Part shown: in pieces, positions 3,531-64,000 of the stretch | Position numbering within the stretch: the stretch's first letter is position 1 | Layout: every line of letters begins with the position of its first letter | Assembly (NCBI GenBank): GCA_903820745.1 | Contig: CAIJIT010000284.1 | Coordinates: forward strand, 1 to 64,000 | Direction of reading: 5' to 3' | Source of the DNA: an uncultured Burkholderiales bacterium | Lineage (GTDB): Bacteria; Pseudomonadota; Gammaproteobacteria; Burkholderiales; Burkholderiaceae_C | DNA length: 64,000 bases | Notes under the pieces: generated by a model | What the model was told of the DNA's origin: nothing | The model's database searches: none | Seen by the model: the letters and a program-made list of their open reading frames with translations, nothing else | Position numbers and translations under genes: made by a program

Positions 3531-3601
3531 CGATCTCTCCTGTTCGAATGCCTGCCAGCGAGTCTAGGCAGCATGCTTGACGAAAGAAAGCCTGAGTTCG
3601 A

Positions 3602-3611
3602 CGATTAATCG
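3602..3611. promoter_or_regulatory. palindrome in divergent lysine-gene/lrp promoter region
   Basis: CGATTAATCG is a perfect 10-bp palindrome in the 139-bp AT-richer spacer between the lysine dehydrogenase-like gene and the Lrp-type gene. Lrp/AsnC regulators usually bind AT-rich dyads in such divergent spacers and regulate both directions. This makes it a candidate operator, by position only. Confidence 0.35.
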
Positions 3612-3669
3612 CCGTAAAGTGTCATATCGTCCGATTTAAAATTCAATTCGTCGAAACAAAGGGTTTCCC

Positions 3670-4146
3670 ATGGGTAATGATCTGAAGCTCGATGCACAGC
3701 GCCTGGCGCCCAGCCGGGAGTTGGCCGATCGCCAGTTGCTGGCGCTGTTGCAGGTGAATGCGCGCGAAAGCACGGCCAATCTGGCCCGCAAGCTCGGGCT
3801 GGCACGCACCACCGTGGTCGCAAGATTGGCCAGACTCGAGGCCGAGGGCGTGATCAGCGGCTACACGGTCAAGCTTGGCAGCAAGGCCGGCCACGCAAGC
3901 GTGCAGGCTTTTGTCGGCATCACGGTCAGCCCCAAGGCCGGGCGCGATGTGGTCAAGAAACTCAGCGCCCTGCCAGAGCTGAACCAGCTCGCCTCGGTCA
4001 GCGGCGAATTCGACTATATGGCCTTGCTGCGCGCTGACTCGACGCTGCGACTCGATGCGCTGCTCGACGAGATCGGCGCCTTTGATGGCGTGACGCGGAC
4101 CACCACCTCGGTGGTGCTGGCAATTCGCGTTGATCGCAACGCCTGA
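3670..4146 (+). CDS. Lrp/AsnC-family transcriptional regulator
   Basis: This 158-residue protein has an N-terminal winged helix-turn-helix (around residues 17-65; NARESTANLARKLGLARTT then VVARLARLEAEGVISGYTV). A C-terminal RAM/effector domain follows (VQAFVGITVSPKAG, then a conserved VSGEFDYMALLRADS). Such proteins form octamers and sense amino acids. It is transcribed divergently from the lysine dehydrogenase-like gene, so lysine or aminoadipate is the likely effector and the lysine genes the likely target. The ATG lies at the end of the shared promoter spacer. Family assignment is certain; the effector is inferred. Confidence 0.9.
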   Translation: MGNDLKLDAQRLAPSRELADRQLLALLQVNARESTANLARKLGLARTTVVARLARLEAEGVISGYTVKLGSKAGHASVQAFVGITVSPKAGRDVVKKLSALPELNQLASVSGEFDYMALLRADSTLRLDALLDEIGAFDGVTRTTTSVVLAIRVDRNA

Positions 4147-4367
4147 ACACGCGAGTCAATGTGATAATGAAGCCCCCCAGCCACGGAGCCATTCTTGGAC
4201 AGTGACCATCGGTGACCGTCCACTCCCTCGCCCAATGCGGCATCGCTGAGCGCGTCAAGCGCTCGAGATAGCCCGCAGGTCCGGAGTGAGACGGTTAACA
4301 CCCATCCGCCCGGACGGCGCCAGCGCCTGTCCAGCCTTTAGACGGCGCAATTGCGCTGGAGATTTGC
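4147..4367 (+). promoter_or_regulatory. corA upstream leader with possible stem-loops
   Basis: This 221-bp gap precedes corA. It holds an imperfect 11-bp inverted repeat at about 4198-4222 and a 6-bp GTCCGG/CCGGAC pairing (4279-4284/4310-4315) about 50 nt before the start codon. No known Mg2+ riboswitch consensus (M-box, mgtA-type) could be recognised by eye. A structured leader is possible but unproven. Confidence 0.25.
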
Positions 4368-5342
4368 ATGCTGAATGTATTCACGCTGGACAACGGGCGC
4401 CTGAAGGGCGGCTTGTTCCAGGAAGAGATCGAATCCGCCGAGGACCTGGCATTGACCCGCCCGGTCTGGGTCGACATGGAAAGCCCGAGCGAAGTTGAAA
4501 AGGGCTGGATCCTCGACCGCTTCGGCTTGACCATCCCCGAAGACATCGTTGCCGAAGACCTCGAGTCTTCAGCGCGTTTCTACGAGGAAGACAACGGCGA
4601 GTTGCATATCCGCTCGGACTTCTTGATCGACGATGACGAAGCGCCGCGCAATGTGCGGGTCGCCTTCATCCTGCTGAACAATGTGCTGTTCTCGATCCAC
4701 AACGAGGATCTGCCGGTATTCAGGTTGCTGCGCCTGCGCGCAAGGCGCATTCCGGCCATGATCGAAGACGCCAAGGATGTGCTGCTCAAGCTCTATGACG
4801 CCGATGCAGAATATTCGGCCGACATCCTCGAAGGCATTTACGACAAGCTCGAAAAGGTCAGCGCGCGGGTGTTGAAGAAGGATGTCAACGACGCCGTGGC
4901 CAGCGAAGTGCTGTCGGCCATCGCCCGCGAGGAAGACTTGAACGGGCGCATCCGCCGCAATGTGATGGACACGCGCCGGGCGGTCAGCTTCATGATGCGC
5001 AGCCGCATGCTCAACGCCGAGCAGTTCGAGGAATCGCGGCAGATTCTGCGCGACATCGACTCGCTTGACTCCCACACGGCCTTCCTCTTCGACAAGATCA
5101 ACTTCCTGATGGACGCGACCGTCGGTTTCATCAATATCAATCAGAACAAGATCATCAAGATCTTCTCGGTGGCCAGCGTCGCGCTGCTGCCGCCAACGCT
5201 GATCGCCAGCATCTACGGCATGAATTTCAAATTCATGCCCGAACTTGATCAGACCTGGGGCTATCCCTTTGCCCTGGTCTTGATGCTGGCTTCGGTGGCT
5301 GCGCCCTTCATCTACTTCCGTCGCAAAGGCTGGCTGCGCTAG
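4368..5342 (+). CDS. corA: CorA-family Mg2+/Co2+ transport protein
   Basis: This 324-residue inner-membrane divalent-cation channel acts as a homopentamer. A large acidic cytoplasmic domain with long helices is followed by two C-terminal membrane segments (about residues 262-283 and 298-317). The signature YGMNF in the loop after TM1 is present (GMN, about residues 284-286), followed by acidic MPELDQ. Length and the basic C-terminal tail (FRRKGWLR) are typical. It is a monocistronic gene with a 221-bp upstream leader, convergent with the next gene after 8 bp. Mg2+ is the most likely substrate; Co2+ or Ni2+ uptake or Zn2+ export are known variants. Confidence 0.95.
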   Translation: MLNVFTLDNGRLKGGLFQEEIESAEDLALTRPVWVDMESPSEVEKGWILDRFGLTIPEDIVAEDLESSARFYEEDNGELHIRSDFLIDDDEAPRNVRVAFILLNNVLFSIHNEDLPVFRLLRLRARRIPAMIEDAKDVLLKLYDADAEYSADILEGIYDKLEKVSARVLKKDVNDAVASEVLSAIAREEDLNGRIRRNVMDTRRAVSFMMRSRMLNAEQFEESRQILRDIDSLDSHTAFLFDKINFLMDATVGFININQNKIIKIFSVASVALLPPTLIASIYGMNFKFMPELDQTWGYPFALVLMLASVAAPFIYFRRKGWLR

Positions 5343-5350
5343 GGCGCGTA

Positions 5351-5791
5351 CTAGGCCTTGATCCGGCGCTTGATCCAGCGCAGCAGGTTGCCGAGCAAAG
5401 GCAGCTTTTCATAGAGCTCCTCGGCCGCGTCCCAATAGTCGCGGTGGTAGGCAATGCGGTCGTCAGTGGCAAAGCGCAGATGGCTGCTGCCATGGATGCA
5501 ACGCTCGATCGCCTGGCCTTGGCGGCGGAAGTGGAAATCCCAGCTGAGGAAACATTGCTGACCTTGCACCAGCACATCGATGACTTCGAAGCGCGGCTCA
5601 TCCAGGGTATCGAACATATGGGCAAACACCCGTTGCACACCAGCGAGGTTGCGGACTTCGTTGAACGGATCCTTGAAGAAAGCCTGCTCGGTGTAGAACA
5701 GGCTGATCCGGTCGATGTCATTGGGCTGCAACTTCTCAAAGAAGGCGATGACTGCCACAGCGCGAGGATCGTCATGTCTTGCTTCACTCAT
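5351..5791 (-). CDS. NTF2/SnoaL-like protein, last gene of the light/lipid operon
   Basis: This 146-residue protein has a SnoaL-like/NTF2 fold pattern: an N-terminal helix, FFEKLQPNDIDRISLFYTEQAFFKDP, then mixed strands containing GSSHLRF and DYWDAAEELYEKLPLLG. Such proteins are cone-shaped and bind or isomerise small hydrophobic molecules, or act as scaffolds. The start was taken at 5791 because its ATG overlaps the stop of the upstream SDR gene (ATGA), implying translational coupling. It is the distal gene of a nine-gene operon with a Cfa-type methyltransferase and an FAD oxidase. Specific function is unknown. Confidence 0.8.
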   Translation of the reverse strand: MSEARHDDPRAVAVIAFFEKLQPNDIDRISLFYTEQAFFKDPFNEVRNLAGVQRVFAHMFDTLDEPRFEVIDVLVQGQQCFLSWDFHFRRQGQAIERCIHGSSHLRFATDDRIAYHRDYWDAAEELYEKLPLLGNLLRWIKRRIKA

Positions 5792-6577: not shown

Positions 6578-7120
6578 TCAAAGTTTCTGGAACGACAAGG
6601 TGACCTCGCCAAGCTTGATGCCGAACTTGCTCATCTGCGCTTTGTTGAGCATCACCCGTTCGTCAACCAGATACATCCAGTCGTCAAAATCAACTTCGTA
6701 GACCTGTCCGCCAACCGGTAGCTTGAGCGCATAGCGCCAGCGCAGGGCATTGCCTGAAGCCTGGCCCTGGGCTTGGCCGACGACGTCGCCCGCGGTGCCG
6801 CTGTAACGCCCGCCGCCCAGATCGGTGATGGTCCAGACGCGTCGCTCGCGCACGCCGTCGCTGTACTCGAAGTCCTCTTCCAGCACGCAGACCGCGGCAT
6901 TCCACGTGCCTTTGAGATTGACGACGAAGCGGCGTTGCACCTGGCCGCTGCGGTCGGTGAAGATGCCATGGGCAATCAGCTTGCCTGAAAAATAGCTGCG
7001 CAGATCGAGCACCGGCTTCTCGCTGGCATAGTCAGCCGGCCCCGGTGCCGCGCAGCCGGCCAGCAGGGCCGAACTGGCGCCCAGCAGGACGAGGCGGCGG
7101 TTCAACATCGATGGGTTCAT
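6578..7120 (-). CDS. DUF3833-family lipoprotein
   Basis: This 180-residue putative outer-membrane-associated lipoprotein has an N-terminal signal MNPSMLNRRLVLLGASSALL followed by the lipobox LAGC (lipidated Cys at residue 23). The rest looks like a beta-barrel/lipocalin-type ligand-binding domain (DUF3833: LRSYFSGKLIAHGIFTDRSG, then VWTITDLGGGRYSGTAGDVVG). The start was chosen at 7120 because this ATG overlaps the stop of the upstream MFS gene and gives a complete signal peptide. DUF3833 genes recur in Cfa/amine oxidase/DUF1365 clusters, where a role in lipid shuttling or sensing is plausible but unproven. Confidence 0.85.
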   Translation of the reverse strand: MNPSMLNRRLVLLGASSALLAGCAAPGPADYASEKPVLDLRSYFSGKLIAHGIFTDRSGQVQRRFVVNLKGTWNAAVCVLEEDFEYSDGVRERRVWTITDLGGGRYSGTAGDVVGQAQGQASGNALRWRYALKLPVGGQVYEVDFDDWMYLVDERVMLNKAQMSKFGIKLGEVTLSFQKL

Positions 7121-8385
7121 TTCATCTCCTTTTCGACAGGTCGGATCCAGAAGGCATAGAGCAGCAGCAGCGCTGCCAGTTTCAAGATCCAGGGCAAGAT
7201 GCAATAGGCAAGCGTCAACGCCTGCATGGCCTGGTCGTCGCGCCGATCCGGTTCATAGCCGAGCCATTGCAGCAGCGGCAGCGCCAAGCCAGCAGCCAAG
7301 GCCAGATTGAGCTTGTTGGCGGCATTCCACCAACCGAAGAAAGCCCCTTCAGCCCGGCCGCCCAGGCCGGCCTGCTGGATCACCAGGGCGAGCATCGCTC
7401 CGGGAATAGCCAGATCGGCCCCCAAGGCCACGCCAGTCGCGATGCATACGAGCGTGAAGGGCAGGCTGTCGCCGGCACCCAGGCAGGCCGCCCAGCCGAA
7501 AGCCAACAAGGCCAGCAGCATGGCCAAGGCCCAGGCGCGGGCCTGGCCAAGCCTTGCCACCACGCGCAGCCAGCAGGGCAAGGACAGCGCTGCAGCGATG
7601 AAATAAGCGGCCAGATAAGGCCCTTCAAACGAAGGCGTTTGCAAGCGATCGCGAACGAAGAAAAGCAGTAGGGTCGCAGGGATCGCCGCGGCGATGCCGT
7701 TCAAAAGAAACACCGCGAGCAAGCGCCTGAACCCCGGCGTGTGCCAGACTGCCACGGCGGGCGCCGTGGCCGCATCAGCCAAACGCAGCGGGGCCGGCGC
7801 CAGGCGCAGCAGCAACAAGCCGACAGCCAGGCTGATCGCCAGCAAGGCTGAAGTTGCTGCCAGTCCCACCAGCGATGGCAGCAGGCTGGCAGTGATCACA
7901 CCGATCAGCGCAAAGCCCTCGCGCCAGGCAACCACGCGGGTCTGGCGCAAGGCGTCGCCACCCAGCCTTGCGCCCCAGGCCTGATGCATCACGCTGAGCA
8001 GGCTGTAGCCAAGGTAGGTCAGGAGCAAAAAAACCAAGCACCAGACCAACAAGGCCTGTGGCTCACGCACCGGCGGGAAGAACAGACCAACGAAGCCGGC
8101 CGTCAACAGCAGCGCAGCCGCGGCCATCACCCCCAGGATTGCCGCCGGTCGGCGATTCAGCCAGCGATCGCATTGCCGGCCGATCCAGGGGTCGAGCAAG
8201 GCATCGAACATCCGGGCCAGCAGCAGCAAGGCACCGAGCCAGGCCAGCGGCATGCCGAACTGCGAGGCGTAATGCGCCGGCAGCGTGACATAGAGCGGCA
8301 AAGCCACGAAGGCCAAGGCGAAGCCGATCGACCCATAGTGCAGACCGGCAGCGGCGCCGAAACTGGCCGGATATTCAACCCGCAT
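7117..8385 (-). CDS. MFS transporter, GPH (glycoside-pentoside-hexuronide)-like family
   Basis: This 422-residue integral membrane protein has about 12 hydrophobic segments. The sequence LLLLARMFDALLDPWIGRQCDRW after TM2 matches the GPH/MelB-type loop containing RxxDAxxDPxxG. The start at 8385 (MRVEYPASF) is preferred; it overlaps the chalcone isomerase-like stop by 11 bp and removes a long low-quality N-terminal extension. It lies in the middle of the operon, and similar transporters occur in related Cfa/DUF1365/DUF3833 clusters. The cargo is unknown and could be a lipid precursor or flippase-type substrate rather than a sugar. Confidence 0.85.
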   Translation of the reverse strand: MRVEYPASFGAAAGLHYGSIGFALAFVALPLYVTLPAHYASQFGMPLAWLGALLLLARMFDALLDPWIGRQCDRWLNRRPAAILGVMAAAALLLTAGFVGLFFPPVREPQALLVWCLVFLLLTYLGYSLLSVMHQAWGARLGGDALRQTRVVAWREGFALIGVITASLLPSLVGLAATSALLAISLAVGLLLLRLAPAPLRLADAATAPAVAVWHTPGFRRLLAVFLLNGIAAAIPATLLLFFVRDRLQTPSFEGPYLAAYFIAAALSLPCWLRVVARLGQARAWALAMLLALLAFGWAACLGAGDSLPFTLVCIATGVALGADLAIPGAMLALVIQQAGLGGRAEGAFFGWWNAANKLNLALAAGLALPLLQWLGYEPDRRDDQAMQALTLAYCILPWILKLAALLLLYAFWIRPVEKEMK

Positions 8386-8896
8386 TGGCGCCTCCCAGCA
8401 GTTGCTGGCGCAACGCCGGCTCGGAGCTTTGTGGCGCCAGCCAGATGCCGAAAAAGAGCCGGCCAAACTCGGCGTCCGCGATACGCCGCTGCGGCCTGCC
8501 GTTGACAAAGAAGCGCACTGAGCTGCCGGGTTCCTGCAGGCCACTGATGCGGTCGCCAGCCTGCACATCCGGGAAAGCGGCCTCCATCTCAGCCAGCCAG
8601 AGATTGGCCTTGGCAGAGCTTATCTCCGCCTGCCTGCGCATTTCGACCAGCGAGCGTCGCGCGATGTCCTTGCCATTAAGGCTGCGTGCATATTCAAGCT
8701 CGAGCGCCAAGGTCTGCGAAGCCCAGTTCTGCGCATCGACCGGTTCGCGCACCCAAAGGCGTGCGGCATAGATCAGCAGGCCGAAATAGCGCAGCTGGCC
8801 TTGCCCTTGCAGGCGCAGATCGGCCAGCTCGGGCGCTGCAGCTTGCGCAGGCAGGGCCAAGCCCAGCAGACCGGCCAGACAGGCGCGGCGCTGCAT
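8375..8896 (-). CDS. chalcone isomerase-like periplasmic protein
   Basis: This 173-residue protein has a cleavable signal peptide (MQRRACLAGLLGLALPAQA, then APEL). The remainder resembles bacterial chalcone isomerase-like domains: LQGQGQLRYFGLLIYAARLW, ALELEYARSLNGKDIARRS, then FFVNGRPQRRIADAEFGRLFFGIWL. In plants this fold binds fatty acids (FAP) as well as flavanones, so lipid binding in the periplasm is a reasonable reading. The ATG follows the cfa stop by 1 nt (TGAGATG), indicating strong coupling. No flavonoid pathway is visible nearby. Confidence 0.85.
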   Translation of the reverse strand: MQRRACLAGLLGLALPAQAAAPELADLRLQGQGQLRYFGLLIYAARLWVREPVDAQNWASQTLALELEYARSLNGKDIARRSLVEMRRQAEISSAKANLWLAEMEAAFPDVQAGDRISGLQEPGSSVRFFVNGRPQRRIADAEFGRLFFGIWLAPQSSEPALRQQLLGGANAG

Positions 8897-59401: not shown

Positions 59402-60337
59402 TCAATTGACGGCCAGAAAATTCTGTCCCGTCACATTGGCATCGTTCACGACAGCAGTCCTTGACGGCGGGTCGAAGGTCTTTCCTCCGTGATAGATATT
59501 GATGGCGTAACTGCCGTTTTTCCCGACCTGAAAACTGTAATTCCCACTGCTGTCAGTCGTTTGAATGGCCGTCAAACCGATGGTCGTGAGGGTGACCGGG
59601 GTGAAGGTTGAACTCAGCATCACACCGGCAAGACCTGTACCGTTGCTGGCCGTCACCTTGCCCGAAATCGTGTAGGTCAGCCCGGTATTTACGGCTGGCA
59701 AATTGGCACCTCCGCCGGTGATCTTGACGTCTGGCAAGACGATTTTTCCACCCGTTGCAATGGCGCTGATGCTGGCTGCCAGATGGCCCAGGGCATCGGC
59801 GGCACCGGTCACAGTCCTGTTGCCGGAATTCTTGGCCACCTCGTTGATCAGCGTGGCAAAGTTCGCCGCCGCCGCCGTGGGAAGATCAAGATTCTGGTTG
59901 AAACATGCGGCGGTGACCGCCGGGTCAATCTTCATACCGGTTGGGGTCAGGCTGCTTGACGTCAGCAGGAACTGGGCGATCTGGACCACCGACGGCATGT
60001 CAACCGTCACCGACGTGCCTGGATGTGCTGCCTTTACCAGGTCCATCGGCGTGATGACAGCGGCCCCGGGCGCATTCCCGACGACCACGCCGCCAACCGA
60101 AAACGTCACTGACTTCCCGACCTCATAACTGAACTCACCATTGGCTCCGGTCAGTCCGGTCTGCCCGCCGGAGAGAAATTTCATTCCTTGCACCGGAGCG
60201 TCAATGAAATTGCCGTTCGCGATAAGGATCGATGCATTGCTGCTGCTGCCGCCGCCACCACCGCCACCGCAGCCGTTCAACAGCAGTGCCAAGGCAAGCA
60301 AGGCCCAAACGATCGGCTTGGAAAATATTCTGTTCAT
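59402..60337 (-). CDS. lipoprotein with repeat-like and CarboxypepD_reg-like domain
   Basis: This roughly 311-residue lipoprotein has a signal peptide, lipobox LLNGC and a poly-Gly/Ser linker. The middle part (about 70-220) alternates beta strands and small residues (GLTGANGEFSYEVGKSVTFSVGGVVVG). The C-terminal part (about 225-311) resembles a carboxypeptidase-regulatory or SdrD B-like domain, containing YTISGKVTASNGTGLAGV and SGNYSFQVGKNGSYAINI. AAGGAG precedes the ATG at 60337. It would be displayed on the outer membrane; function unknown. It is not clearly part of the upstream ALDH operon (80-bp gap). Confidence 0.85.
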   Translation of the reverse strand: MNRIFSKPIVWALLALALLLNGCGGGGGGGSSSNASILIANGNFIDAPVQGMKFLSGGQTGLTGANGEFSYEVGKSVTFSVGGVVVGNAPGAAVITPMDLVKAAHPGTSVTVDMPSVVQIAQFLLTSSSLTPTGMKIDPAVTAACFNQNLDLPTAAAANFATLINEVAKNSGNRTVTGAADALGHLAASISAIATGGKIVLPDVKITGGGANLPAVNTGLTYTISGKVTASNGTGLAGVMLSSTFTPVTLTTIGLTAIQTTDSSGNYSFQVGKNGSYAINIYHGGKTFDPPSRTAVVNDANVTGQNFLAVN

Positions 60338-60416
60338 CATCACTCCTTGTCCTGTTTCACACCTCGGCTGACTCCGACGGAAGACTGCCACCGTTCAACG
60401 AATAACCCCCAACCAC

Positions 60417-61883
60417 TCAGGATTCAATCCCGATCAGCACATTCTTTGTCTCAGTGTATTGCTCGAGCCCCTGTCGTCCGAGTTCCCTGCCGATACCTGA
60501 TTGCTTGAATCCTCCGAAGGGCATAAATGCACCTATTTGACTCGCGCTTGGATGCGCGTTGATGTTGATGCTCCCCACCCGAAGCCCTTTCGCCACCTTC
60601 AATGCGCGCGTCAAGTCCTTGGTCCAAATCGAAGCTGACAAGCCAAAGGCCGAATCATTCGCCAGATCAATGGCATCGGACGCATCCATGCAAGCCACAG
60701 CCACGACTGGACCAAAAATCTCCTCCTCCACAATCCTCATGCCAGCTTTCGTTTCAGAAAAAATTGTCGGCTGGAAATAGTTGCCGTCTTCCAAACCAAC
60801 CGGCCTTCCGCCGCCGCAAATCAAACGGGCGCCGTCTTTTGTGCCACTGCGTACGAGTTCGTCGACCCGTTGCCAATGCTCCCTGGCAATCAACGGGCCC
60901 AAATCTGTCGTTTCATCAAGCACCGCCCCGATCTTCAGCAAGGCTGTTTCAGCCTCAAGCCTTGCAACAAACTCCTGGTACACCGCCGACTCCACATAGA
61001 TCCTGGACCTGGCCGAACAACTCTGCCCCGAGTTGCCGAAGACAGCCCGCACGGATGCGCTGGCTGCCGCGGCCAGATCAGCGTCGGCAAAAACCAAGGT
61101 CGGACTCTTGCCTCCCAGTTCCAGTGCGACTCGCTTGATACCGGCGGCTGCCGACTGCATCACTGCAGCACCCGTGCTCGTCGAGCCGGTAAACGAAATC
61201 ATGTCTATGCCCGGATGCGCCACCAGCGCCGATCCGGCCATTTGTCCCCCTGAAAGGATATTGGCAACACCCTTCGGTAGATCGATCGATCGGAGAATTT
61301 CAGCAAGAACCAGCGCCGACAACGGTGTAAACGGCGAAGTCTTCAAAACGACCGTGCAACCCGCCGCGAGTGCAGGCGCAAGTTTCCAGGCAGCGGCCAG
61401 AAATGGAAAGTTCCAGGGAACTAGCTGCCCTACAACCCCGACCGGCTCCCGGCTGGTGAATGCAAAATTCTGGCTACCAAGCGGGATCGTGCTACCCGTC
61501 AGATCGGGGGCCAGGCCCGCATAATAGGAAAATACCCTGGCTGCACCGAGAACCTCTCGTCGCGCACCTTTGATCGGCTTTCCCGAACTGATCGCATCAA
61601 TTCGGGCAATATCTTCGCAACGTGCCTCAATCGCTTGCGCAATCCTGCTCAAATATTGACCACGCTCGAATGGAACAAGATTCGGCCAAGGGCCCTGAGT
61701 AAAGGCCACCCGCGCGGCGGCTACTGCGGCATCAACTTGCAGTTTTCCGGCCGACCGTACCGTTGTCAGTTGTAGATTGTTGCTGGGGTTGCAGACAATA
61801 ATCTCTTCGCCGGTGCCAGCGACGAACTGCCCGTTGATAAACAGAGCCTCTGGGTGATTCACAGAAATATCAACATCGGTCAT
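60417..61883 (-). CDS. NAD(P)-dependent aldehyde dehydrogenase of the accessory nucleotide-like operon
   Basis: This 488-residue class 1/2-type ALDH has NAD-binding PWNFPFLAAAWKLAPALAAG, the Glu region ELGGKSP, and catalytic Cys in GNSGQSCSARSRIYV. The C terminus is FGGFKQSGIGRELGRQGLEQYTETKNV. It resembles betaine-aldehyde or amino-aldehyde dehydrogenases. It lies 12 bp downstream of a HisI-like gene and is the last of four co-oriented genes whose neighbours look like NadC, OMPDC and HisI paralogues. It probably oxidises an aldehyde intermediate of that pathway; the substrate is unknown. Confidence 0.9.
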   Translation of the reverse strand: MTDVDISVNHPEALFINGQFVAGTGEEIIVCNPSNNLQLTTVRSAGKLQVDAAVAAARVAFTQGPWPNLVPFERGQYLSRIAQAIEARCEDIARIDAISSGKPIKGARREVLGAARVFSYYAGLAPDLTGSTIPLGSQNFAFTSREPVGVVGQLVPWNFPFLAAAWKLAPALAAGCTVVLKTSPFTPLSALVLAEILRSIDLPKGVANILSGGQMAGSALVAHPGIDMISFTGSTSTGAAVMQSAAAGIKRVALELGGKSPTLVFADADLAAAASASVRAVFGNSGQSCSARSRIYVESAVYQEFVARLEAETALLKIGAVLDETTDLGPLIAREHWQRVDELVRSGTKDGARLICGGGRPVGLEDGNYFQPTIFSETKAGMRIVEEEIFGPVVAVACMDASDAIDLANDSAFGLSASIWTKDLTRALKVAKGLRVGSININAHPSASQIGAFMPFGGFKQSGIGRELGRQGLEQYTETKNVLIGIES

Positions 61884-61895
61884 TGCAAGCCTTGC

Positions 61896-62306
61896 CTACC
61901 CGTGGTTTGCTGGAATTTCGCGACAAAAACAGGTCAAAAATCCATGCCCGCAAATATGCCGCTCAGGTACCGTCTCGAACAATACCGTGTCATCATCACA
62001 ATCGACAATAACGCGGGTTATTTCGACAAAATTACCGTCATCCTCGCCCATAGCCCAGAGCCGCTGGAGGGTTCGCCTGTACATGGTTAAAATTCCAGTT
62101 CGACATGAAACATTCCAGGCTTCTGGATTAAGAAAACCTACCATCAAGACTTGCCCCGTATAGGCATGCTGCAAGACAAAGGGCAACAATCCGCCCATTT
62201 TGTCAAAATTCAAGGCTACCGGCTCAAAGCTGAACCGACCCTTCGGCGACTTGAATACTGTTGCGCTCGTTGCTACGTCGGATCTTTCACTGCTGGCATC
62301 GTTCAT
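61896..62306 (-). CDS. HisI (phosphoribosyl-AMP cyclohydrolase)-like protein
   Basis: This 136-residue HisI paralogue contains LPFVLQHAYTGQVLMVGFLNPEAW, the arc RTLQRLWAMGEDDGNF (canonical GEtSGN) and the metal motif D102-C103-D-D-D106. The final motif C119-G-H-G-F-L-T-C126-F replaces the canonical C-H-T-G-x-x-S-C-F, so the zinc Cys are kept but the His is moved by one. A ring-opening hydrolase is likely. No other his genes are present, so histidine synthesis is not supported. It is 10 bp after the OMPDC-like gene. Confidence 0.85.
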   Translation of the reverse strand: MNDASSERSDVATSATVFKSPKGRFSFEPVALNFDKMGGLLPFVLQHAYTGQVLMVGFLNPEAWNVSCRTGILTMYRRTLQRLWAMGEDDGNFVEITRVIVDCDDDTVLFETVPERHICGHGFLTCFCREIPANHG

Positions 62307-62316
62307 TTTAAACCTA

Positions 62317-63087
62317 TCAATCCAAAACGGCTTGCATCATTGCGTCGACAAATCTCTGCGCTGATTCGGTTGGCGATTTACTAGCAGCGACCGCTCGGCC
62401 GACGATCGCGTATTTTCTAGGCGCAGCCTTTGCCGCCAGAAATGCCTTCGAAATATCTCCACCGAGGCTACCGAAGCCGGTGAGAAAGACGATGGGCTGC
62501 TCGACATTATTCGTCATCCAGTCGATTTTTTGTCGAAGCGCATCGGTATTATTTGCAGGCAAGACGAAGCTGTTGGCACCCACATCACCAGCAATCTCCA
62601 AGATGCGTTCGAGCACATCATCGACCAAGAATCCACCACCCGAGATGCAATAATCCGGAACCGGTATATGGCCACCGACAACCGGAACCATACCGTGTCG
62701 TATCGTTTCGCCAACGAAACTCCGAACGGCTTGTGGCCCGGCGACAGGGAACAAAATCAACGCATCTGCACCCGCTTCACTGCAGAACTTGGCAAACTTG
62801 GCTGCCATATCCGGCATATCAGGCCCCGCCTTCTGATGGTCATAGATCAGCGGCAGGTCCGTGATATTCCTCAAGACGCTGATCGCATGCGGCAAGCCTC
62901 GCGGCAAAACTCCCGTCAAGCCCAGTTTATAGCCGACGACCCCTTGCACGTTCGTCGTCTGTTCGACGAGACGCAGCATTTCATCCCAGGAATCAACATC
63001 AAGCGCAGGCACCAATCCGATCGGCGCAGCGAACAACCCAAGCGCCTTTTCTACGGTGACCTTGGGGTCCAATTCCGCCATCTTCAC
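62317..63087 (-). CDS. OMP decarboxylase/HUMPS-family (alpha/beta)8 protein with altered active site
   Basis: This roughly 256-residue barrel has the family's strand ends ALD30, GYK54 and phosphate-binding VGR231AV. The canonical D-x-K-x-x-D is replaced by D83-H-Q-K86-A-G-P-D90, so the key acidic residues are spaced differently. This type resembles archaeal proteins labelled OMPDC-like/HUMPS. It may decarboxylate or process a phosphoribosylated substrate, but true OMP decarboxylation is doubtful. The start is GTG 63087 overlapping the upstream stop by GTGA, or ATG 63081 with GGGG 8 nt upstream. Confidence 0.82.
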   Translation of the reverse strand: MKMAELDPKVTVEKALGLFAAPIGLVPALDVDSWDEMLRLVEQTTNVQGVVGYKLGLTGVLPRGLPHAISVLRNITDLPLIYDHQKAGPDMPDMAAKFAKFCSEAGADALILFPVAGPQAVRSFVGETIRHGMVPVVGGHIPVPDYCISGGGFLVDDVLERILEIAGDVGANSFVLPANNTDALRQKIDWMTNNVEQPIVFLTGFGSLGGDISKAFLAAKAAPRKYAIVGRAVAASKSPTESAQRFVDAMMQAVLD

Positions 63088-63971
63088 TGCCCCTTCTGGG
63101 CAAGAGCGATGTCGCGCAACGCACTCGCTTTCAATTGCCCGATGTCGATACTAATGTCGACAACCTTGGCACTGTGTACGATGCCGCCGATTGCGATCTG
63201 CTTGACACCGGTCTTGGCGATTGGCACCACCGTCTCTTCATTGACGCCCCCGGTGCCAACGGTCCAGGCTTTGTCCCCGACTATTTTTACCGCCTCAGCC
63301 AATACATCTATATCCATATTATCGAACATAATACATTCGACACCACAGGCAAGCGCCTCCCTGGTATCTTCAAGGGTTTCGCACTCGCATTCAATCTTGA
63401 GCGTGTGTTGGCCACGTTCGCGCAACTGGGCGACTGCAGGGCTAATGCCACCGGCCATCTTGATATGGTTATCCTTGAGCAGCACTGCATTGTGCAGACT
63501 GTACATGTGCGGAATTGCTCCGCCTTTTCGCACAGCATATTTTTGCAGCACCCGGATCGGTGGTATACCCTTCCTTGCATCGGAAATTTTGGTGCCATAG
63601 GGCTTGACCAAATCAACATATTTTCGCGCTTCGGTGGCGATGCCAGAAAGATGCTGTAGGTAATCCAAAGCCAGCCGCTCGCCGGCCGCAAATATCCAAG
63701 CCGGCGCCTTGATCGTCATGACGACATCACCGGGCCTGCAAAATTCGCCATCCTGTTTGAGAATTGAAATCTCACTCTCTGGGGCCAGAATTTCGAATGT
63801 CATTTTCGCAACCGGGATTCCACATAGAATACCCGGCTTCTTCATATATATATTGGCGGTCATTATCTGCTTATGACCATCCAGGAATTGAGACGTATGA
63901 TCGCCATGCATCAACTCCTCGCGAATTCCCCACTCGATGATCGGGCGAATTATGCTTGGTATCAAATCCAT
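63084..63971 (-). CDS. NadC-like (quinolinate phosphoribosyltransferase-family) protein
   Basis: This 295-residue type II phosphoribosyltransferase has ERLALDYLQHLSGIAT (98-113), AR133-K134 (canonical T-R-K-T), EKYAVRxGG-like QKYAVRKGG, and LKDNH (165-169). In the substrate pocket the canonical His-Arg pair is His155-Met156, so one quinolinate-carboxylate Arg is lost. GIPP replaces the usual TLPG after Arg-Lys. PRPP chemistry looks intact but the ring substrate is probably not quinolinate. AGGA precedes the ATG. No nadA or nadB accompany it. Upstream genes lie outside the window. Confidence 0.88.
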   Translation of the reverse strand: MDLIPSIIRPIIEWGIREELMHGDHTSQFLDGHKQIMTANIYMKKPGILCGIPVAKMTFEILAPESEISILKQDGEFCRPGDVVMTIKAPAWIFAAGERLALDYLQHLSGIATEARKYVDLVKPYGTKISDARKGIPPIRVLQKYAVRKGGAIPHMYSLHNAVLLKDNHIKMAGGISPAVAQLRERGQHTLKIECECETLEDTREALACGVECIMFDNMDIDVLAEAVKIVGDKAWTVGTGGVNEETVVPIAKTGVKQIAIGGIVHSAKVVDISIDIGQLKASALRDIALAQKGQ

Positions 63972-64000
63972 TTGCTTTTCCTTTGCTTATCTACCATCCC

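Follow-up and report, generated by a model that had tools for sequence, protein, structure and literature searches.

A rare, scattered bacterial gene set that looks like an undescribed route tagging a small nitrogen-containing ring acid

Gene run in and beyond the window

The window analyzed here, a stretch of 64,000 nucleotides of DNA from an uncultured Burkholderiales bacterium, makes up the start (bases 1-64000) of a contig of 92,132 bases, and its end is crossed by a run of genes encoding relatives of NadC, orotidine 5'-monophosphate decarboxylase (OMPDC, or PyrF), HisI and PsuG. The gene set is rare and scattered in bacteria, and looks like an undescribed route in which a small nitrogen-containing ring acid is tagged with a phosphoribosyl group. 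The first-pass annotation of the window had reported four co-oriented reading frames separated by junctions of 4, 10 and 12 bp, had assigned them to NadC-, OMPDC-, HisI- and aldehyde dehydrogenase (ALDH)-like families and had suggested that more genes might lie past position 64,000. The coordinates, the orientation (minus strand) and, by Pfam, the families were all confirmed, and three upstream genes were found on extending the sequence. The four-gene operon described at that time was therefore correct but incomplete, since its genes are the end of a seven-gene run:

60417-61883, minus strand: ALDH, last gene of the run (Pfam Aldedh, 7.7e-164)
61896-62306, minus strand: HisI-like cyclohydrolase (Pfam PRA-CH, 2.4e-16)
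62317-63087, minus strand: OMPDC-like decarboxylase (Pfam OMPdecase, 4.5e-11)
63084-63971, minus strand: NadC-like phosphoribosyltransferase with QRPTase domains (Pfam QRPTase_C, 1.4e-44)
contig 63962-64978, minus strand: alpha/beta hydrolase of the HSL type (Abhydrolase_3, 1.3e-62), with its 3' end (63962-64000) inside the window
contig 64975-65886, minus strand, past the window: PsuG-like glycosidase (Indigoidine_A, 1.7e-85)
contig 65922-67124, minus strand, past the window: periplasmic binding protein (Peripla_BP_6, 2.3e-96)

The genes follow each other in the order binding protein, PsuG-like, alpha/beta hydrolase, NadC-like, OMPDC-like, HisI-like and ALDH. The binding-protein gene lies 35 bases upstream of the PsuG-like gene, which overlaps the hydrolase gene by 4 bases; the latter overlaps the nadC-like gene by 10 bases, and this is followed by a 4-base overlap with the OMPDC-like gene and gaps of 10 bases (OMPDC-like/HisI-like) and 12 bases (HisI-like/ALDH). 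Promoter-like sites in the run numbered 9 vs 5.7 in shuffled sequences, and terminator-like sites 9 vs 7.7. The GC content of the seven genes is low (0.49-0.58 vs 0.62 in the window), which suggests that the run may have been gained horizontally. The ALDH scores under the cut-off of every NCBIfam family among the 25 of 43 matches listed.

Another gene on the minus strand (59402-60391) begins after a gap of 25 bases from the ALDH gene; it encodes a lipoprotein-like product with a long Gly run and a weak CarboxypepD_reg match under the cut-off. Its place after the ALDH gene is held by a nucleotidase in Afipia.

Residue changes in the four diverged enzymes

The NadC-like protein passes the NCBIfam model TIGR00078 (248 bits vs a cut-off of 198). 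We aligned 10 sequences from gene clusters of the present kind with 18 canonical-type sequences, ten of them from carrier genomes, seven from further genomes of the taxonomic order, and 1x1o; the Afipia nadC (which occupies two frames) was left out of the counts and the tree, as were three NadC-like sites to which no locus corresponds and L151, for which tblastn gave no match. In M. tuberculosis QAPRTase, the numbering of which is used here, the 3-carboxylate of quinolinate is described as being bound by the side chains of Arg162 and Arg139, and the 2-carboxylate by Arg105', Lys172 and the main chain of Arg139, while the activity of the R162A variant was not detectable (PMC4065032). In the porcine complex with nicotinic acid mononucleotide (NaMN), the equivalent Arg161 is likewise placed at the 3-carboxyl (PMC3633916). 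At the Arg162 site, all 10 cluster sequences carry Ile or Met (Met in the window), as against Arg in all 18 canonical-type sequences. The cluster sequences also read RKG instead of RKT, ALD instead of ALN (10/10 vs 18/18 in both cases) and LxN instead of LxD (10/10 vs 17/18), and RKG and PHM are present in the intact part of the Afipia nadC as well. The equivalents of Arg105, Arg139, Lys140 and Lys172 are retained. From these residues, we read the NadC-like enzyme as having retained its site for a carboxylate adjoining the ring nitrogen, with that for the 3-carboxylate weakened or lost; a 3-substituent without charge, for instance a carboxamide, would fit too.

In an unrooted tree of the 28 NadC sequences, the cluster sequences form one group (support 100/100, branch 0.92), and the NadC-like protein thus stands outside the canonical clade. 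A second, canonical-type NadC was identified in 10 of the 11 genomes holding the NadC-like gene, none being found in G881; that of the window's own genome lies at G000:C283:20507-21307. The possibility that the gene in the run is an ordinary NAD gene was rejected on the strength of this second copy and of the lost recognition residues.

The OMPDC-like protein falls under the NCBIfam equivalog cut-off (52 vs 208 bits). The catalytic tetrad Lys42-Asp70-Lys72-Asp75 and the phosphate-binding Arg203 are retained in all 11 cluster sequences, while two other sites, the equivalence of which is based on the GGEMTH/EMSH motif and on alignments, are consistently altered. The Ser127 site is Pro in 11/11 cluster sequences (Pro142 in the window) and Thr or Ser in 56 of the 57 other family members, the remaining one, L066, also having Pro; the Gln185 site is Leu in 11/11 (Leu208 in the window) and Gln in 57/57 others. 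In OMPDC, the backbone NH of Ser127 is described as bonding O4 of the pyrimidine-derived intermediate, and Gln185 as helping to close loop 7 over the phosphate (PMC12395307). Since proline has no backbone NH, the O4 contact would be impossible in the cluster proteins. A structure model based on six sequences (pLDDT 84) matched the OMPDC of M. thermautotrophicus first in a fold search against the PDB (TM 0.74, E 1.2e-15). In a tree of 40 sequences (the 11 cluster sequences plus L066, with 28 of the remaining 56), the cluster sequences and L066 form one group (99/94), and the 11 without L066 are grouped at 60/86. As for the nesting inside canonical PyrF that would have counted against the first-pass proposal, the OMPDC-like proteins form a group of their own inside a wider OMPDC family. 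An ordinary pyrimidine gene was rejected on the residues only, no search for pyrF having been made in the window's own genome.

The HisI-like protein also falls under its equivalog cut-off (81 vs 126 bits) and is 76% identical to the Afipia copy. These two sequences were compared with 30 taken as canonical (the best matches of 29 relatives, and 6j22). The metal ligands, DCDxD and two later Cys, are retained in both. The WxKGExS motif has become WAMGE[DE]D (WAMGEDD in the window), so that the equivalents of Lys109 and Ser113 are Met and Asp in 2/2, as against Lys and Ser in the 30; the SRS-type stretch has become RRT, and CH has become CGH, placing the His one position later. The known reaction of HisI is the cyclohydrolysis of phosphoribosyl-AMP (PR-AMP) (PMC10242683). 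In the account given of the plant HISN2 complex, WTKGETS holds the AMP phosphate, with Lys109 also at N7, the N1-phosphoribosyl probably sits at SRS, and water is activated by His143 and zinc (PMC8102479). Since one phosphoribosyl site is lost whichever way the two phosphate sites are assigned, the substrate of the HisI-like enzyme probably carries a single ribosyl group. HisI was found in 142 of 148 relatives, only the window's own copy exceeding 38% identity to the HisI-like protein, and a search with this protein in a collection of genome contigs returned no relative. An ordinary histidine gene was rejected, since the recognition residues are lost and a canonical-type hisI is present elsewhere in the genome.

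Lys166 and Glu31 of PsuG are retained in the PsuG-like proteins of 3/3 clusters. Asn289, which is described as bonding uracil O2 (PMC7722734), is replaced by Arg in all three; this comparison was with E. coli only, two other PsuG sequences ending earlier. An Arg at this site could hold a carboxylate. AlnA was one of six relatives found for the PsuG-like protein in the PDB.

The altered motifs proposed in the first-pass annotation were thus recovered for NadC, HisI and OMPDC on alignment with canonical-type sequences. Judging from these alignments, the sites for catalysis and for the phosphoribosyl group are largely preserved and the base sites are altered, in all the cluster sequences in the case of NadC and OMPDC, as would be expected from a shared new substrate.

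Distribution and cluster architectures

The altered OMPDC is rare: among 369 genomes of the class and 398 of the phylum, no close homologue of it was found besides the copy in the window's own genome, two matches at E 7e-4 and 1e-3 having been set aside, and no match to this protein or to the L118 copy was found in plasmids. A collection of species genomes was scanned with the peptide patterns KGGA[IVL]PHM and [PN][LP][IG]YDHQK, which require near-exact motifs, so that loci without them escape the scan. Of the 98 stretches matched, 61 encode a relative. Six loci (L042-L047) show 49-100% identity, and the remainder (about 26-42%) belong to a wide 'DHQK' family spanning archaea and bacteria. One member of this family lies on a 252,876-base viral contig (L037; region 3588-5693), after genes that look by eye like pyrE and pyrD, possibly a phage-borne late pyrimidine pathway; because of this context, the wide family is taken to consist of true OMPDCs. 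Profile searches beyond the centre genomes gave hits in 2 of 200 relatives of Afipia (near-copies of each other), 1 of 192 relatives of the L045 genome and 2 of 199 relatives of the L046 genome; among the relatives of the Corynebacterium and cyanobacterium carriers, only the centre genome was found (1/221 and 1/214, respectively).

The clusters can be classified into three architectures, which we have named types A, B and C. Type A comprises the window, an Afipia metagenome-assembled genome (MAG) (L042) and a Paucibacter MAG (L043). L042 carries all seven genes, ordered as in the window, and also a TIGR01993 nucleotidase; its nadC (6678-7485) is split over two frames, by assembly error or decay; its ALDH is 69% identical to that of the window. 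In L043, the contig ends after the NadC-like gene. This gene (7701-8588) encodes a protein 99% identical to the window's, as compared with 90-92% for the hydrolase and PsuG and 95% for the binding protein; strong constraint or recombination would account for the excess.

Type B comprises eight genomes (L044, L045, L115, L116, L117, L118, L119 and L120), where L120 is the L046 genome and L115 and L116 are near-copies. They share an amidohydrolase, the NadC-like and the OMPDC-like genes (8/8), mostly with ALDH (7/8; 49-52% identical to the window's) and PncC (7/8), and in part with HAD (4/8) and UbiD (4/8); the L120 stretch stops within its NadC-like gene, and in L115 and L116 a distance of about 1.8 kb separates PncC from the OMPDC-like gene. 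HisI and PsuG were not found beside the NadC-like and OMPDC-like genes of this type. HAD phosphatase genes were identified in L115, L116, L119 and L120 as well as in L042, and transporter-like genes were read by eye near the L115 and L120 clusters. The UbiD genes of L118 (6940-8424) and L119 (10815-12299) are 90-91% identical to that of L120 (8472-9992), and that of L045 is different (30% identical to L120 UbiD). A second decarboxylation by UbiD may be part of the pathway.

In type C, the NadC-like gene is replaced by a NAMPT-like one: Corynebacterium L066 has consecutive NAMPT-like, OMPDC-like and PncC genes, and in the cyanobacterium Elainella (L047) the OMPDC-like and PncC genes are consecutive, with a divergent NAMPT-like gene beside them. 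The L066 NAMPT-like protein has Asn at the position of the Asp of 'TDT' in an aligned PDB relative, an Asp that presumably contacts the nicotinamide amide.

PsuG occurs in 3 of 6 carrier genomes and within a cluster only in type A; the window and Afipia clusters are the only ones in which a HisI-like gene was seen. The NadC-like and OMPDC-like genes share a cluster in 10 of 11 NadC-type loci (adjacent in 5), the eleventh being L043, which ends at the contig edge. In every cluster seen whole, a pyridine-type phosphoribosyltransferase belonging to either of two families lies close to the altered OMPDC. The common core is thus this transferase plus the altered OMPDC, and the later genes differ. 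The neighbourhood is conserved, as the first-pass annotation required of its proposal, with the seven genes in order in Afipia and the NadC-like/OMPDC-like pair in the eight type-B genomes; on account of this recurrence, a chance neighbourhood was ruled out.

Proposed pathway, rival explanations and known systems

We infer the substrate, the order and the direction of the scheme proposed here, as well as every reaction in it. An imported small N-heteroaromatic acid would be activated by phosphoribosyl and decarboxylated, after which, in type A, the ring would be opened, ribose 5-phosphate released and an aldehyde oxidized; we give this reading a probability of roughly 45%. The NadC-like enzyme would convert phosphoribosyl pyrophosphate (PRPP) and an azine acid into an N-phosphoribosyl azinium, from which the OMPDC-like enzyme would remove the carboxylate beside the phosphoribosylated nitrogen, as OMPDC does with orotidine 5'-monophosphate. 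In type A only, metal-activated water at the HisI-like enzyme would then attack the ring carbon adjoining the nitrogen and open the ring, as in the PR-AMP reaction but here without a second ribosyl group, and the PsuG-like enzyme would free ribose 5-phosphate via a Lys iminium. The alpha/beta hydrolase and the ALDH, the latter oxidizing an aldehyde, would complete the chain. On this reading, the substrate would be a small azine acid other than a pyrimidine, probably with its carboxylate adjoining the ring nitrogen; our best guess is a picolinate-type acid, because the residues assigned to the N-adjacent carboxylate are kept and one 3-carboxylate Arg is lost. The chemistry imagined in the first-pass annotation (phosphoribosylation, decarboxylation, ring hydrolysis, aldehyde oxidation) is partly supported, since it fits these findings and gains a PsuG deglycosylation. 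That the scheme might constitute a new class of catabolic route, the oxygen-independent cleavage of an aromatic N-heterocycle in which PRPP quaternizes the nitrogen and re-tooled OMPDC, HisI and PsuG decarboxylate, hydrolyze and recover the sugar phosphate, is a more tentative idea, which we rate somewhat below the scheme itself. Among the papers listed by searches of an open-licence library, none was seen from its title or the beginning of its abstract to deal with a route of this kind.

Several points weigh against this scheme. QPRT itself decarboxylates the 2-carboxylate, so that a separate decarboxylase is not strictly needed, and catabolism at the cost of PRPP would be unusual. The HisI-like and clustered PsuG genes were seen in type A only, so that the third and fourth steps are not general, and the end product need not be common to types A and B. 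The presence of PncC and NAMPT next to the OMPDC-like gene suits nicotinamide nucleotides as well as, or better than, picolinate. The Afipia nadC is split over two frames, the loop carrying Pro142 has a pLDDT <50 in the OMPDC-like model, L066 keeps Gln at the Gln185 site, and the shift of the catalytic His of the HisI-like protein could mean altered catalysis. Porcine Lys171, equivalent to Lys172 of M. tuberculosis, is described as also facing the 3-carboxyl (PMC3633916), and the two carboxylate sites are therefore not cleanly separate. Lastly, an earlier docking study is said in PMC8102479 to have assigned the two phosphate sites of HisI in reverse.

The first-pass annotation favored the making of a nucleotide-derived metabolite or cofactor, in which case the transferase and the decarboxylase would make an unusual nucleotide and the PsuG-like enzyme would run synthetically. 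The reported reversibility of PsuG (YeiN) in vitro (PMC7722734), the relationship with AlnA and the HAD phosphatase genes of five loci speak for it; but the run starts with a Peripla_BP_6 binding protein, transporter-like genes occur near two type-B clusters, and Pfam scans of the seven genes gave no ligase-, nonribosomal peptide synthetase- or exporter-like protein. The binding protein, the UbiD, amidohydrolase and transporter-like genes point to uptake and breakdown, without proving it, and we regard biosynthesis as rather unlikely. A side route to NaMN and NAD seems slightly less probable again: here, the NadC-like or NAMPT-like enzyme would take an unusual pyridine precursor, the OMPDC-like enzyme would remove an extra carboxylate beside the ring nitrogen, PncC would deamidate the nucleotide and the product would be NaMN. 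The frequency of PncC (7/8 type-B regions and both type-C clusters) and the NAMPT-like genes of type C are in keeping with this route, but nearly all the genomes concerned have a further NadC, the OMPDC-like gene is rare, and NAD synthesis has no use for HisI, PsuG or ALDH. Detoxification, with a heteroaromatic antimetabolite being phosphoribosylated and destroyed, would also be in keeping with the sporadic distribution and low GC content; since the binding protein and the ALDH suggest use and not only removal, this strikes us as improbable. The breakdown direction is preferred here because of the binding protein, the UbiD genes and the transporter-like genes near two type-B clusters.

To our knowledge, the bacterial routes of pyridine-acid breakdown all start with hydroxylation or reduction. 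Activation at the nucleotide level, if true, would solve the chemical problem in another way, and the OMPDC scaffold would be known to catalyze a second decarboxylation, with a base that lacks the O4 contact. The defined residue changes of the four diverged subfamilies render the hypothesis directly testable. Such genes also run the risk of being misnamed nadC, pyrF or hisI, as the score of the NadC-like protein exceeds the NCBIfam cut-off for nadC.

Compared with the known systems, the NadC-like enzyme resembles NadC (EC 2.4.2.19) in its family, its four retained basic residues and its TIGR00078 match, and differs from it in the lack of an Arg162 equivalent, the changed motifs and the clustering of its gene with a decarboxylase gene. 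The OMPDC-like enzyme shares the fold, the Lys-Asp-Lys-Asp tetrad and the phosphate Arg (11/11) with the 'DHQK' subgroup of PyrF, but has Pro for Thr/Ser127 and Leu for Gln185 (11/11). The HisI-like enzyme keeps the metal ligands of HisI, but the Lys and Ser of KGExS are gone, RRT stands for the SRS-type stretch, the His is shifted and no other his gene is present among the seven. The PsuG-like enzyme keeps Lys166 and Glu31 of PsuG, whereas Asn289 has become Arg and the HGxP-type loop P[VA]G, and the seven genes include no kinase. A possible analogy to the core as a whole is offered by the UMP synthase pair PyrE and PyrF, in which PRPP transfer to a ring acid is likewise followed by decarboxylation beside the nitrogen; in the present case, however, the transferase is NadC-like or NAMPT-like, and the base would be unable to bind as a pyrimidinedione.

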